A stretch of DNA of 64,000 nucleotides from Streptacidiphilus albus JL83. Lineage in GTDB: Bacteria; Actinomycetota; Actinomycetes; Streptomycetales; Streptomycetaceae. The notes beneath the pieces are model-generated. The model made no database searches, had not been told where the DNA came from, and saw only the letters and a program-made list of their open reading frames with translations. A program made the translations under genes and the position numbers. Shown piece by piece: positions 712 to 49,295 of the stretch; positions within the stretch are counted from its first letter, which is position 1; each line of letters opens with the position of its first letter. Location of the stretch: assembly GCF_000744705.1 (NCBI RefSeq), contig NZ_JQML01000001.1, forward strand, positions 8,504,017 through 8,568,016, written 5' to 3'.

Positions 712-1248
712 ATGTCAGACATGACGGAAACCACGCCCGGCTGGCTCGCCTCCGACGATCTGGAACTGGCGCGTGCCCGGATGCCCATCCTGTACGTCGA
801 GGCGGTACCGGTGCGGGTCGACGACAGCGGTGAAGTGACGCACATCGGGCTCCTGTTGCGGATCGGGGCGGACGGGACCGTCAGTCGCGCCCTGGTCTCC
901 GGCCGGGTGCTGCACCACGAACGGGTCCGCGACGCCCTGCTGCGGCATCTGGAGAAGGACCTCGGTCCGGTGGCGCTGCCCAGGGTCCCGGCCTCGCTGC
1001 AGCCCTTCACCGTCGCCGAGTACTTCCCGACGCAGGGGGTCACCCCGTTCCACGACCCCCGGCAGCACGCGGTGTCGCTGGCCTACATCGTCCCGGTGAG
1101 CGGCGACTGCCGGCCCCGCCAGGACGCTCTCGACCTGGTCTGGTTCAGCCCGCAGGAGGCGTCCTCCGCGCTGGTCCAGCAGGAGATGCCGGGCGGCCAG
1201 GGACTCCTGCTGAAGCAGGCCCTGGCCCACGCCGGCTGCCTGAGCTGA
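712..1248 (+). CDS. Nudix-fold protein with a degenerate Nudix box
   Basis: A 178-residue protein recognised as the actinobacterial Nudix-like family (DUF4916 type). Residues 64-86 run G-x5-E-x7-R-H-L-E-K-D-L-G-P, which aligns with the Nudix box GX5EX7REUXEEXGU, but the metal-binding REXXEE glutamates are mostly replaced (R-H-L-E-K-D). It may therefore bind rather than hydrolyse a nucleotide diphosphate, or act with altered metal ligation; this is inference. The start at 712 is chosen because the -10 box sits 6 nt upstream; a start at 652 would add 20 residues unlike the family. Monocistronic, followed by a convergent gene. Confidence 0.7.
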   Translation: MSDMTETTPGWLASDDLELARARMPILYVEAVPVRVDDSGEVTHIGLLLRIGADGTVSRALVSGRVLHHERVRDALLRHLEKDLGPVALPRVPASLQPFTVAEYFPTQGVTPFHDPRQHAVSLAYIVPVSGDCRPRQDALDLVWFSPQEASSALVQQEMPGGQGLLLKQALAHAGCLS

Positions 1249-1291
1249 GCGCACCCGACCGCATCCCCCGCCCGCAACGACCGCCGGACCG

Positions 1292-1933
1292 CTAGCGGGC
1301 TGCTGGGACCAGCCGTCCCAGCAGCTCGCCGAAGGCCACCAGCCGGTCGATCTGCCCCGGCCCGCCGTCGTCCAGCGACTTGCTGAAACGGAACGCCTCC
1401 GGGCGGAACCGGGCGGTGCCCGCGCCGCCCTCGTCCAGCGCGACCGCGCTCAACTCCTGGACCGCGCCGGTGGTCACCACCACGAACACCCCGCGCCGGG
1501 CCCTGGCGCCCGCGCCGTCGCGGCCGACCAGGGTGCGCATCCCGACATGGCGCACCTCGGCCAGCGGCAGCACCTGGATCGACGAGTCCAGCACCGTGCC
1601 GCCGGGCGCGGTCCGGTCGGCGACCTCCTCGCTGTGCCAGAGGATCAGCCGCCGCCCGTCGCAGACCGCGGCCTCCTGCCAGACCGAGGCGCCGGCCTCG
1701 GTCAGGTCCACCACCCGCTCCAGCGTGAAGCCGCGCACCCGGTGCCGGCCCAGCACGCCGCCGATCGCCTCCAGCGCCACGTCCGGGTGGAGGAAGTAGG
1801 CCTCCGCCGCCTGCTCCAGCCGTCGGTACGGCGACCAGTCCGATCCCGGCAGCCCCACCGGGTACCCGCCGTCCTCCGGTCCCTGCGGGCCCCCGTCACC
1901 CGATCCGCGCCGCCTCGACACCCTGCTGAACAT
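1292..1933 (-). CDS. Conserved actinobacterial protein of unknown function
   Basis: A 213-residue protein starting MFSRVSRRRG, with no signal peptide or membrane segment. The middle alternates short hydrophobic strands with charged turns, suggesting a mixed alpha/beta soluble fold. It lies divergently next to the phosphatase/DUF3090/SCO1664-type/mshC block, a position that from memory also holds a hypothetical protein in other Streptomyces. Upstream frame continues open but those residues are the antisense shadow of the phosphatase gene, so the ATG at 1933 is taken as the start. I do not recognise a functional domain. Confidence 0.65.
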   Translation of the reverse strand: MFSRVSRRRGSGDGGPQGPEDGGYPVGLPGSDWSPYRRLEQAAEAYFLHPDVALEAIGGVLGRHRVRGFTLERVVDLTEAGASVWQEAAVCDGRRLILWHSEEVADRTAPGGTVLDSSIQVLPLAEVRHVGMRTLVGRDGAGARARRGVFVVVTTGAVQELSAVALDEGGAGTARFRPEAFRFSKSLDDGGPGQIDRLVAFGELLGRLVPAAR

Positions 1934-14999: not shown

Positions 15000-15046
15000 C
15001 GCGGGGGATCCGACGGGGTGCGTGGGCCGTCCGGCGCGGGGACCGC

Positions 15047-15052
15047 TATCCT
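15047..15052 (+). promoter_or_regulatory. -10 box for the fluoride-riboswitch transcript
   Basis: TATCCT lies 7-8 nt before the predicted first aptamer nucleotides (about 15059). Confidence 0.5.
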
Positions 15053-15058
15053 CGTGAC

Positions 15059-15118
15059 TACGGCGGAGGGGCTCGCCGTCAACCGCGACCGGGCGACCGG
15101 TCGCCAACGGTCCCTACC
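15059..15118 (+). ncRNA. Fluoride riboswitch aptamer (crcB motif)
   Basis: The element matches the crcB-motif consensus in order: GGCG-loop-CGCC hairpin (15062-15077), the invariant AACCGC block (15081-15086), a second hairpin GCGACC/GGTCGC (15085-15104), and the closing CCCTAC (15112-15117). The whole aptamer is about 58 nt, the usual size, and sits directly before a crcB-DUF190-crcB operon, the expected target. Position and consensus agree, so the assignment is firm although no covariance search was run. Confidence 0.85.
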
Positions 15119-15158
15119 TGGCGGTCGCCTGTCCGGCGACCCGGACGACACAGGTAGG
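15113..15158 (+). promoter_or_regulatory. Riboswitch expression platform: alternative pairing that masks a ribosome-binding site
   Basis: CCTACCTG (15113-15120), the 3' strand of the aptamer, is perfectly complementary to CAGGTAGG (15151-15158), which overlaps the AGGAGAG ribosome-binding site of the ATG at 15165. Fluoride binding would hold the CCTAC strand in the aptamer and free the site. This is a pairing seen in the sequence; the switching direction is inferred. Confidence 0.65.
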
Positions 15159-15164
15159 AGAGAC

Positions 15165-15242
15165 ATGCCCCGATCACAGCACCTGCGGCCCGGCCGCCCC
15201 GGGCGGGCCCCTGCCTTCCGGAGGGCCGATGCCCGGACGTGA
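15165..15242 (+). CDS. 25-residue leader ORF under the fluoride riboswitch
   Basis: ATG 15165 has the best ribosome-binding site of the region (AGGAGAG, 4 nt upstream) and encodes MPRSQHLRPGRPGRAPAFRR plus five residues before TGA at 15240-15242. Its end overlaps the ATG at 15229 that opens the N-terminal extension frame of crcB, so translation could be coupled. The peptide is Arg/Pro-rich with no recognisable domain. It may be only a device for coupling riboswitch control to crcB. A GC-rich hairpin (GGCCCG/CGGGCC, about 15187-15211) lies inside it. Confidence 0.4.
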   Translation: MPRSQHLRPGRPGRAPAFRRADART

Positions 15243-15380
15243 CCCAGCAGGGGGGCAGGTCCGCGCCGACCTTTCCCCCGGCCAGCCCCTGCCCGTCGAC
15301 CCGGCCCCGGACCGGGGCCCCGACGACCCGGCCCCGGCCCCGGCTCCGGCCCGGCCCCGGCCCCGACTCCGGCCCCGGAC
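15229..15380 (+). other. Probable N-terminal extension of CrcB, out of frame with the channel domain
   Basis: ATG 15229 (GGAGGG at 15220) opens a frame whose product begins MPGRDPAGGQ and continues with a PVDP segment and an Ala-Pro repeat, like the N-terminal extensions of streptomycete CrcB proteins. The frame departs from the CrcB frame in a CCGGCC repeat tract. The run at 15350-15352 has three Cs where neighbouring copies have four; one extra C would join this segment seamlessly to the channel-domain frame through further Ala-Pro repeats. It is either a sequencing or assembly error or a true slippage mutation. Confidence 0.6.
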
Positions 15381-15905
15381 GTGTCGCAGGCGCAGCGAGC
15401 CCGGCGGCAGTGGGACGTGCCGGCGGTCGTCGCCCTCGGCGGCGGACTGGGCAGCGTGGCGCGCTACGGGCTCGCCCGCGCCTGGCCCACCCCGGCCGGC
15501 GGCTTCCCCTGGGCGACCTTCACCACCAACGTCCTGGGCAGCCTGGCCCTCGGGCTGCTGATGGTCTACGTGATCGAGGTCTGGCCGCCCTCGCGCTACC
15601 GGCGCCCCTTCATCGGGGTCGGCATCATCGGCGGCTTCACCACCTTCTCCACCTGGATGAGCGAGAGCCGGGGGCTGATCGCCACCGGGCACCTCGCCCT
15701 CGCCGACGCCTACGCGCTGACCAGCCTGGTCGCCGGCCTGGCCGCGGTCTGGAGCGGCATCGCCCTGGCCCGGCGGCTGTCCGGGCTGCCGGTGCGGCGC
15801 GGCCCCAGCCGCCGCAGCCAGGCCGGGCGCACCGCGACCGCCGCCGCGGCTGCGGCCGCCGCCGCCGCCGCCGAGGACCGATCCGCCGAAGGAGCACCGC
15901 GATGA
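15381..15905 (+). CDS. crcB: CrcB/FEX fluoride channel, first copy
   Basis: 174 residues from GTG 15381, which lacks a ribosome-binding site; the true gene probably starts at 15229 (see adjoining entry). The channel signature is complete: GGGLGSVARYGL, TFTTNVLGSLALG with the pore Asn, and GGFTTFSTWMSE with the phenylalanine-box and Na+-site residues, over four membrane helices. Fluc channels are dual-topology dimers that export fluoride; actinobacteria often carry two crcB genes whose products form a heterodimer. An Ala-rich tail follows helix 4. It overlaps the DUF190 gene by ATGA. Confidence 0.9.
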   Translation: MSQAQRARRQWDVPAVVALGGGLGSVARYGLARAWPTPAGGFPWATFTTNVLGSLALGLLMVYVIEVWPPSRYRRPFIGVGIIGGFTTFSTWMSESRGLIATGHLALADAYALTSLVAGLAAVWSGIALARRLSGLPVRRGPSRRSQAGRTATAAAAAAAAAAAEDRSAEGAPR

Positions 15906-16354
15906 CCCCGCACCTGCACCGGCACCGGGCCGACGCCCCTGAACCCGGCCCCGGTTCCGAAGCCGTTCCCGGGCCCGGCGTGCGTGCGGAACTGCACGGC
16001 CGGGCGCTGCGCCTGACCGTCCATCTGGCCGACGGCGAGCAGTACCACCACCGTCCCGTCTACAGCGAGATCGTGCACCGGGCGCACCGGGCCGGGCTGG
16101 CCGGGGCGAGCGTCTTCCGGGGGATGGAGGGCTTCGGCCGCACCGCCCGGGCGATCCACACCACCCGGCTGCTCGACCTGGCCGACAACCTGCCGCTGCT
16201 GGTGGTGATCATCGACACGCCGGAGCGGATCCAGGCCTTCCTGCCCGAGCTGCGCGAGGTCAGCCCGCACAGCCTGGTCACCGTGGAGGAGGTCGGGCTG
16301 GTCCCGCCCGCCGACCCCGCCGCTCCGTCGCCGTCCCCCCGGAGGAACCGCTGA
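15902..16354 (+). CDS. DUF190 family protein
   Basis: A 150-residue cytosolic protein. The DUF190 domain (about residues 33-135) is a PII-like ferredoxin fold, recognisable from the PVYSEIVHRAHRAGLAGASV helix and the GMEGFG glycine turn, ending with PLLVVIIDTPERI. The family commonly lies between crcB genes and is thought to modulate or respond to fluoride stress; its ligand is not settled. It is translationally coupled on both sides (ATGA with crcB-1, TGATG with crcB-2), so the three products are made together. Confidence 0.88.
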   Translation: MTPHLHRHRADAPEPGPGSEAVPGPGVRAELHGRALRLTVHLADGEQYHHRPVYSEIVHRAHRAGLAGASVFRGMEGFGRTARAIHTTRLLDLADNLPLLVVIIDTPERIQAFLPELREVSPHSLVTVEEVGLVPPADPAAPSPSPRRNR

Positions 16355-16722
16355 TGCCCGTCCTGATGGTCTTTCTCGGCGGCATGATCGGGGCCCCGGT
16401 GCGCTTCCTGACCGACAGGTTCGTCCAGTCCCGCCACGACGGCGTCTTTCCCTGGGGCACCTTCGCCATCAACGTCTCCGGCGCCTTCATCCTCGGCGCC
16501 GTCGGCGCCGGCGTCGCCCACCACCACCTGGGGGCGAACGTCAGCCTGCTGCTGGGCACCGGCTTCTGCGGCGGCCTGACCACCTTCTCGACCTTCTCCT
16601 TCGAGACCGTACGGCTGATGGAGGACGGCTCGCTGGCCGAGGCCGGGCTGAACGTCGTCGGCAGCCTGGCCTTCGGGCTGGGGGCGGCGGCCCTCGGCTT
16701 CGCCCTCGTCGGCTGGCTGTGA
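16354..16722 (+). CDS. crcB: CrcB/FEX fluoride channel, second copy
   Basis: A 122-residue, four-helix membrane protein of normal Fluc size. It has GGMIGAPVRFLTDR, WGTFAINVSGAFILG with the pore Asn, and GGLTTFSTFSFET. With the first copy it probably makes a heterodimeric fluoride exporter, as in other Gram-positive paired-crcB loci. It lacks the N-terminal extension of copy one. Start codon overlaps the DUF190 stop. Confidence 0.93.
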   Translation: MPVLMVFLGGMIGAPVRFLTDRFVQSRHDGVFPWGTFAINVSGAFILGAVGAGVAHHHLGANVSLLLGTGFCGGLTTFSTFSFETVRLMEDGSLAEAGLNVVGSLAFGLGAAALGFALVGWL

Positions 16723-49012: not shown

Positions 49013-49036
49013 GGGCGTGTTGCTGAGACAAGACAC

Positions 49037-49203
49037 CTCGTTCGGTGAGGCGTCTTCACGGACACAGGCCACTGATCCCACCCGTCGAGAGACGCTCCGG
49101 ATCAGGACACCTCTTCCCGACCTAAGGGTTGAGGCCAAGTGGCTGCGCATGCGGACCCTTCGGGGGCTCGCGCTACGCCGTGGAGTGCCAAAGCTCTGAC
49201 GAG
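49037..49203 (+). ncRNA. M-box (ykoK) magnesium riboswitch
   Basis: The region carries the M-box landmarks in order: GGTGAGGC near 49044, GTCGAGAGACGC near 49084, an AAGGGTTGAGGCC-AAGTGGC segment around 49124-49143 and TGCCAAAGCTCTGACGAG at 49186-49203; CTCGT (49037-49041) pairs with ACGAG (49199-49203) to close P1. It precedes mgtC by about 290 nt, a magnesium-stress gene. Assignment is by consensus recognition without a covariance search. High Mg2+ would be expected to turn the transcript off. Confidence 0.75.
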
Positions 49204-49295
49204 TTGGGGTGTGCCGGGAGTGCTCTGCCCTCCTGGCGTTCCCCCTGCGGTTCGGACGCCACCGGTGCGTTCCCGACCAGAGGGAGGCGAGAGAC

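Follow-up and report, generated by a model that had tools for sequence, protein, structure and literature searches.

Upstream of crcB in the genome of Streptacidiphilus albus JL83, a candidate fluoride riboswitch is followed by two start codons, which raises the question of which of them it controls and how that control would reach crcB. The window analysed here is a stretch of 64,000 nucleotides (assembly GCF_000744705.1, contig NZ_JQML01000001.1, positions 8,504,017 to 8,568,016), and the features of the crcB locus named below lie on the forward strand. The original prediction had placed in it a fluoride riboswitch whose alternative pairing masks the ribosome-binding site of a short leader ORF overlapping crcB, with fluoride control passed on by translational coupling. 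Its observation was partly confirmed and its interpretation partly supported. The reading that we favour, with moderate confidence, is that a divergent fluoride riboswitch works as a translational ON switch gating ATG 15165, and that its effect is relayed to a crcB start further downstream.

A divergent crcB-type aptamer and its distribution

In an Rfam scan of the window, the only match at cut-off was an M-box magnesium riboswitch (49030-49215, 132 bits). The Rfam fluoride model RF01734 matched positions 15053-15123 with 17.0 bits, below its gathering score of 34, and the best-scoring variant homologue reached 21.5 bits. Despite the sub-threshold score, all of the helices of RF01734 are present. 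The P1 hairpin (15062-15077), recognised from the alignment of homologues, pair counts and the sub-threshold RF01734 alignment, pairs GGCG (15062-15065) with CGCC (15074-15077), and N6 (G15066) lies in its loop together with GGGGC (15068-15072), the strand that forms the 5' side of the pseudoknot. The P2 hairpin (15085-15104) is formed by GCGACCGG and CCGGTCGC, and the following segment (15105-15115) contains N38 (C15105), A40 (A15107), the 3' pseudoknot strand GTCCC (15110-15114) and U48 (T15115). The 18 homologues located 5' of crcB were aligned without difficulty, and P1, P2 and the pseudoknot were found in every one of them: P1 and the 5-bp pseudoknot were invariant, as were the linchpin bases A40 and U48, while P2 showed compensatory changes at four pairs.

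In the solved aptamer, A6 pairs with U38 in reversed Watson-Crick geometry and A40 with U48 in reversed Hoogsteen geometry (PMC11586693); the A40-U48 pair serves as the linchpin for fluoride (PMC8752731). At the window element the partner of G15066 is C15105, so that G6-C38 stands in place of A6-U38. Among 139 distinct elements from the fetched loci, positions 6 and 38 were G/C in 118, A/U in 21 and mixed in none; the counts back the pair but are not a tally of independent events, as few exchanges, or even a single one, may lie behind them. The swap of a tertiary pair at the fluoride site appears to be compensatory, and the role of the pair would be testable with natural sequences. Because the Rfam score fell below the cut-off and the A6-U38 identity was absent, we filed the element as a variant and not as a plain member of RF01734. 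The claim of a fluoride riboswitch stands as one of homology, although the gathering score was missed (17 vs 34 bits): judged by sequence comparison, the element is a homologue of fluoride riboswitches, and its aptamer is real and of the crcB type but divergent.

We searched 298 Streptomycetaceae genomes with a covariance model built from the window element and its homologues, and 121 of them carried the element (E <= 0.01). The RF01734 cut-off was reached in 6 of 121 genomes of the family. The aptamer variant would be a widespread one that escapes the current Rfam model. The downstream gene was crcB for most elements and a pyrophosphatase or enolase gene, both recognised by sequence, for others. 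Pyrophosphatase and enolase are known partners of fluoride riboswitches (PMC11139923), and it is mainly from the three partners crcB, pyrophosphatase and enolase that we infer fluoride as the ligand of the window element.

Several genomes carried islands of fluoride resistance in which canonical and variant fluoride riboswitches were mixed, their number in one genome being well above ten. They were located in G013 (C4:6707595-6747824; L098-L100), G039 (L101, L143, L172) and G042 (L102, L103), with further islands in G161 (L104), G051 and G073, and the riboswitch targets in them included genes for pyrophosphatase, enolase, CrcB, a phosphoglycerate-mutase-like protein, a GTPase-like protein and small membrane proteins. 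Organofluorine biosynthesis was considered as a cause of the many riboswitches and rejected, the fluorinase domain (PF01887) being absent from ten genomes. At the locus L004, a canonical fluoride riboswitch (1061-1126, minus strand, 44.3 bits) and a variant (1208-1322, plus strand) are arranged back to back and divergently, and the canonical one leads into genes that, judged by eye, resemble those for formate hydrogenlyase or NADH dehydrogenase subunits. A second weak RF01734 match in the genome (L002) was discarded as it lay inside an apparently unrelated coding sequence.

The OFF-state helix and the riboswitch start codon

The original prediction rested on an 8-bp complementarity, and CCTACCTG at 15113-15120 is indeed the exact complement of CAGGTAGG at 15151-15158. 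The resulting helix P4 (15113-15158), which encloses an inner hairpin, was supported by covariation and by the minimum free energy (MFE) fold. In the 18 homologues, 100% of its cells were paired with standard pairs and compensatory changes occurred at two pairs, one going from CG to UA in 8 sequences and the other from UA to AU or CG in 2, so that P4 is not a product of chance. Positions 15113-15115 of P4 also belong to the pseudoknot and include the linchpin base, and the two folds are therefore mutually exclusive. The Shine-Dalgarno (SD) sequence of the first start, AGGAG (15156-15160), is nearly invariant in the alignment and lies partly within P4, where CAGGTAGG has AGG in common with it. 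The predicted masking of this SD by alternative pairing is thus supported by a helix that covaries and excludes the ligand-bound fold, and both the 8-bp pairing and ATG 15165, whose loss in relatives would have spoken against the idea, are kept.

No terminator-like site or intrinsic terminator was found in a scan at the locus, and a translational ON switch is the simplest reading. SD gating would be the shared mechanism, because ordinary loci of Streptomyces have the SD of crcB itself masked. Just 5' of the aptamer, GCTATCCT (15046-15053) is a putative -10 element recognised from conservation only: it was found at the same place in 8 of 8 loci of the genus, and a consensus sigma-70 scan gave no promoter there. 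Its conservation directly upstream suggests a transcript that begins with the aptamer, and we regard GCTATCCT as a probable -10 element.

The sequence AUGCCCC (15165-15171) is kept after the riboswitch SD regardless of the downstream gene. Across 12 elements whose downstream genes are mostly unrelated, positions +3 and +4 were always CC, C occurred at +5 in 11 and at +6 in 8, and the following positions were at background. A blind pattern ending at the SD, before the start codon, was run against 395 genomes of the family and 394 genomes drawn from the class. It recovered 23 elements in 17 of the 395 family genomes and, among the 394 class genomes, none except in the window's own genome; in 20 of the 23 the sequence continued with AUGCC. 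As AUGCC(C) is kept before unrelated genes and conservation then ends, the start codon seems to be part of the RNA element, which suggests that the RNA, or the opening two codons, is under constraint rather than the gene.

The stretch GCCCC (15167-15171) is also complementary to the 5' pseudoknot strand GGGGC and is paired with it in the MFE fold of the window. This pairing exceeded controls in only 10 of 22 relatives, being strong in the window and some relatives, and a double capture in the OFF state, with GCCCC holding GGGGC, may hypothetically take place. We tentatively extend this to the G6-C38 subtype of Streptomycetaceae as a whole, as a conjecture that has perhaps one chance in a few of being right: the start codon would lie inside the switching structure, and the OFF state would recapture both pseudoknot strands, the SD taking one and the codons that follow AUG the other. 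The element would then be a portable cassette that can precede any gene, the adaptor being either a leader ORF or an in-frame fusion.

Two starts, the leader ORF and the crcB frame

A 25-codon ORF (MPRSQHLRPGRPGRAPAFRRADART) opens at ATG 15165 and ends at TGA 15240-15242 (15165-15242), exactly as predicted. A second SD, GGAGG (15219-15223), precedes a second start at ATG 15229 (15219-15231), which is likely that of crcB, and the leader stop falls 14 nt inside the ORF opened there. The prediction that the leader ends 14 nt into the frame of a crcB extension therefore holds for the overlap with the 15229 ORF, but that frame is not contiguous with the body of CrcB. It carries the conserved N-terminal motif (LPVDP...) and ends at 15561, while the CRCB domain is encoded from 15381 onwards in a GTG frame that is the ATG 15165 frame beyond the leader stop. 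The gene (crcB, or fluc; 15229-15905; PF02537, 1.8e-26) is thus read in the ATG 15229 frame to about 15355 and then in the GTG 15381 frame. Given that the 15229 frame holds the N-terminal motif and that a CCGGCC/CCCGGC repeat (15300-15378) lies at the break, a one-base indel in the repeat, either real or from the assembly, is likely; in the close relative L004, crcB is continuous from the second start. The operon continues with a DUF190 gene (15902-16354; PF02641, 2.2e-31) and a second crcB (16354-16722; PF02537, 1.5e-28). The DUF190 frame is open upstream over the entire first crcB (15239-16354, 371 codons), which is common in very GC-rich DNA, and in two relatives a SAM-IV riboswitch was found shortly 3' of the crcB operon (L005, 2928-3056; L007, 516-629).

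Across the 12 crcB loci of the clade, the leader ORF proved to be only one of two arrangements. It was separate in four (25 codons in the window, 25 in L004, 41 in L009 and 38 in L017), but in the other eight the riboswitch start was in frame with crcB and the frame was open throughout. All four of the out-of-frame crcB leaders in the genus stop within 14 nt of the second start, with a 14-nt overlap in the window and L004 and a TGATG in L009 and L017. These four loci come from three genomes, and on the tree a locus must have switched between the in-frame and separate states at least twice. A second SD and start in frame with the N-terminal motif (LPVDPD or equivalent) was present in 12 of the 12 clade loci and in 0 of 70 other riboswitch-crcB loci; in most such loci of the family, the masked SD serves crcB directly. 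The first starts assigned by script in the Streptomyces loci L037, L067, L078, L082, L120 and L152 were artefacts of a simple start rule or doubtful, and were excluded from the leader count. Neither the leader peptide past MPR nor the leader frame was conserved, while both starts were. The claim that the riboswitch-controlled start is distinct from the crcB start was thus supported, and the conserved two-start layout is firm as far as sequence comparison goes.

How the signal would pass from one start to the other is a matter of inference. The codon-position G+C of the leader gave no clear coding bias and was not informative. A sequestered second start as the basis of tight coupling was not supported, since this start was no more structured than shuffled sequence, with fold z-scores around zero in most loci. 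Having its own SD and no special structure, the second start may be used independently, and the translational coupling proposed from leader to crcB is plausible but unproven.

Elements before other genes offered a further view of the relay. In G013, one pyrophosphatase copy is preceded by a leader of 31 codons whose stop lies 12 nt before the ATG of the gene, and another copy, in G161, forms an in-frame fusion with the riboswitch start. Where the element precedes enolase (G039, G051) or a small crcB (G102), the first ORF runs more than 100 nt past the gene start and out of frame, indicating that termination and reinitiation is not the only relay. These overruns, together with the free frame and length of the leader and a second start with its own SD and no special structure, are all accounted for if only the leader start is gated and the relay is transcription polarity through Rho or mRNA stability, with leader translation protecting the RNA and its frame and stop being immaterial. 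We consider this possible, and the strongest of the alternatives, but it leaves unexplained why the leader stop and the gene start are no more than some 15 nt apart in the four out-of-frame crcB loci and in one pyrophosphatase locus, as expected under coupling.

It is rather unlikely, though deserving of weight, that the leader is incidental, ATG 15165 being a plain N-terminal start of crcB followed by a fast-drifting, low-complexity extension with an indel, real or from assembly, in four loci. The eight open in-frame loci, the direct start at the riboswitch SD in most of the family's riboswitch-crcB loci and the position of the window's frame break within a GC repeat would all fit such a history. 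It does not readily accommodate a second SD and start placed just 5' of the N-terminal motif in 12/12 loci vs 0/70 elsewhere, the occurrence of separate leaders in four crcB loci through at least two state changes and before other genes as well, or the fact that four of the four out-of-frame crcB leaders in the genus end at the second start. Still less probable is a division of labour in which ATG 15229 gives a constant low level of CrcB and ATG 15165 adds a fluoride-induced product in the in-frame species. While a good second SD without special sequestration in all 12 loci and the in-frame arrangement in 8 of them agree with this idea, the first start yields no CrcB in the four out-of-frame loci, where riboswitch control would be useless unless the two starts were coupled. 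A relative of the crcB motif with a different ligand is very improbable: the low RF01734 score and the G-C in place of A6-U38 would allow it, but the linkage to crcB, pyrophosphatase and enolase, the canonical fluoride riboswitches neighbouring the element in the same islands, and the retention of A40, U48 and the pseudoknot all speak against it.

A proposed relay and comparison with known systems

Under the favoured reading of a fluoride-responsive ON switch with a relayed effect, CAGGTAGG would capture the 3' pseudoknot strand when fluoride is absent, hiding the SD of ATG 15165. This start codon would be built into the riboswitch as AUGCCCC, with the crcB start likely to lie downstream and to have its own SD. 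Ribosomes entering at 15165 would then reach crcB by straight read-through into its frame, as in 8 of the 12 relatives, whereas in the window they would end at TGA 15242 beside the second start and either re-initiate there or keep its mRNA open. The homology, the two exclusive pairings and the two-start layout come from sequence comparison; what we infer is that fluoride binds, that the SD is gated in vivo and that the effect is relayed to crcB. Several points count against the reading: the leader with no clear coding bias and no conserved frame or peptide beyond MPR, the overruns before enolase and one small crcB, the crcB frame broken as assembled, the missed Rfam cut-off and the second start's own SD, which weakens the case for a strict dependence on the leader.

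Compared with the RF01734 aptamers of T. petrophila and B. cereus, the window element has the same P1, P2, 5-bp pseudoknot and A40 and U48 positions, reuses the 3' pseudoknot strand in the OFF state and belongs with the same gene partners. It differs in its score below the gathering threshold, in G6-C38 replacing the reversed Watson-Crick A6-U38, in a translational expression platform with SD masking and in a start codon separate from the gene start. The direct-start crcB loci of Streptomyces (such as L036, L066 and L111) share the aptamer and an SD-masking helix with compensatory changes, but there crcB begins at the riboswitch SD and a second internal SD and start is lacking (0/70).

In the literature searched, no paper described a fluoride riboswitch combined with a leader ORF, although this does not prove that none exists. 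The closest known system is ppe2 of M. tuberculosis, in which an out-of-frame uORF is under the control of a B12 riboswitch and ppe2 itself is translated mainly via termination-reinitiation (PMC11260477). In both systems the riboswitch masks the SD of an ORF other than the main gene, at the window as judged by sequence, and the stop of that ORF overlaps or abuts the gene start, which within this element family does not apply before enolase. The B12 switch turns expression OFF, whereas the fluoride switch at the window would turn it ON; the overlap is AUGA in uPPE2/ppe2 but 14 nt at the window; and ppe2 has no SD, while the second start in the window has GGAGG, with equivalents in 12 of the 12 loci. 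If our reading is right, this fluoride riboswitch would act by way of its own leader start codon, a second case beside the M. tuberculosis B12 switch and one that works in the opposite direction.
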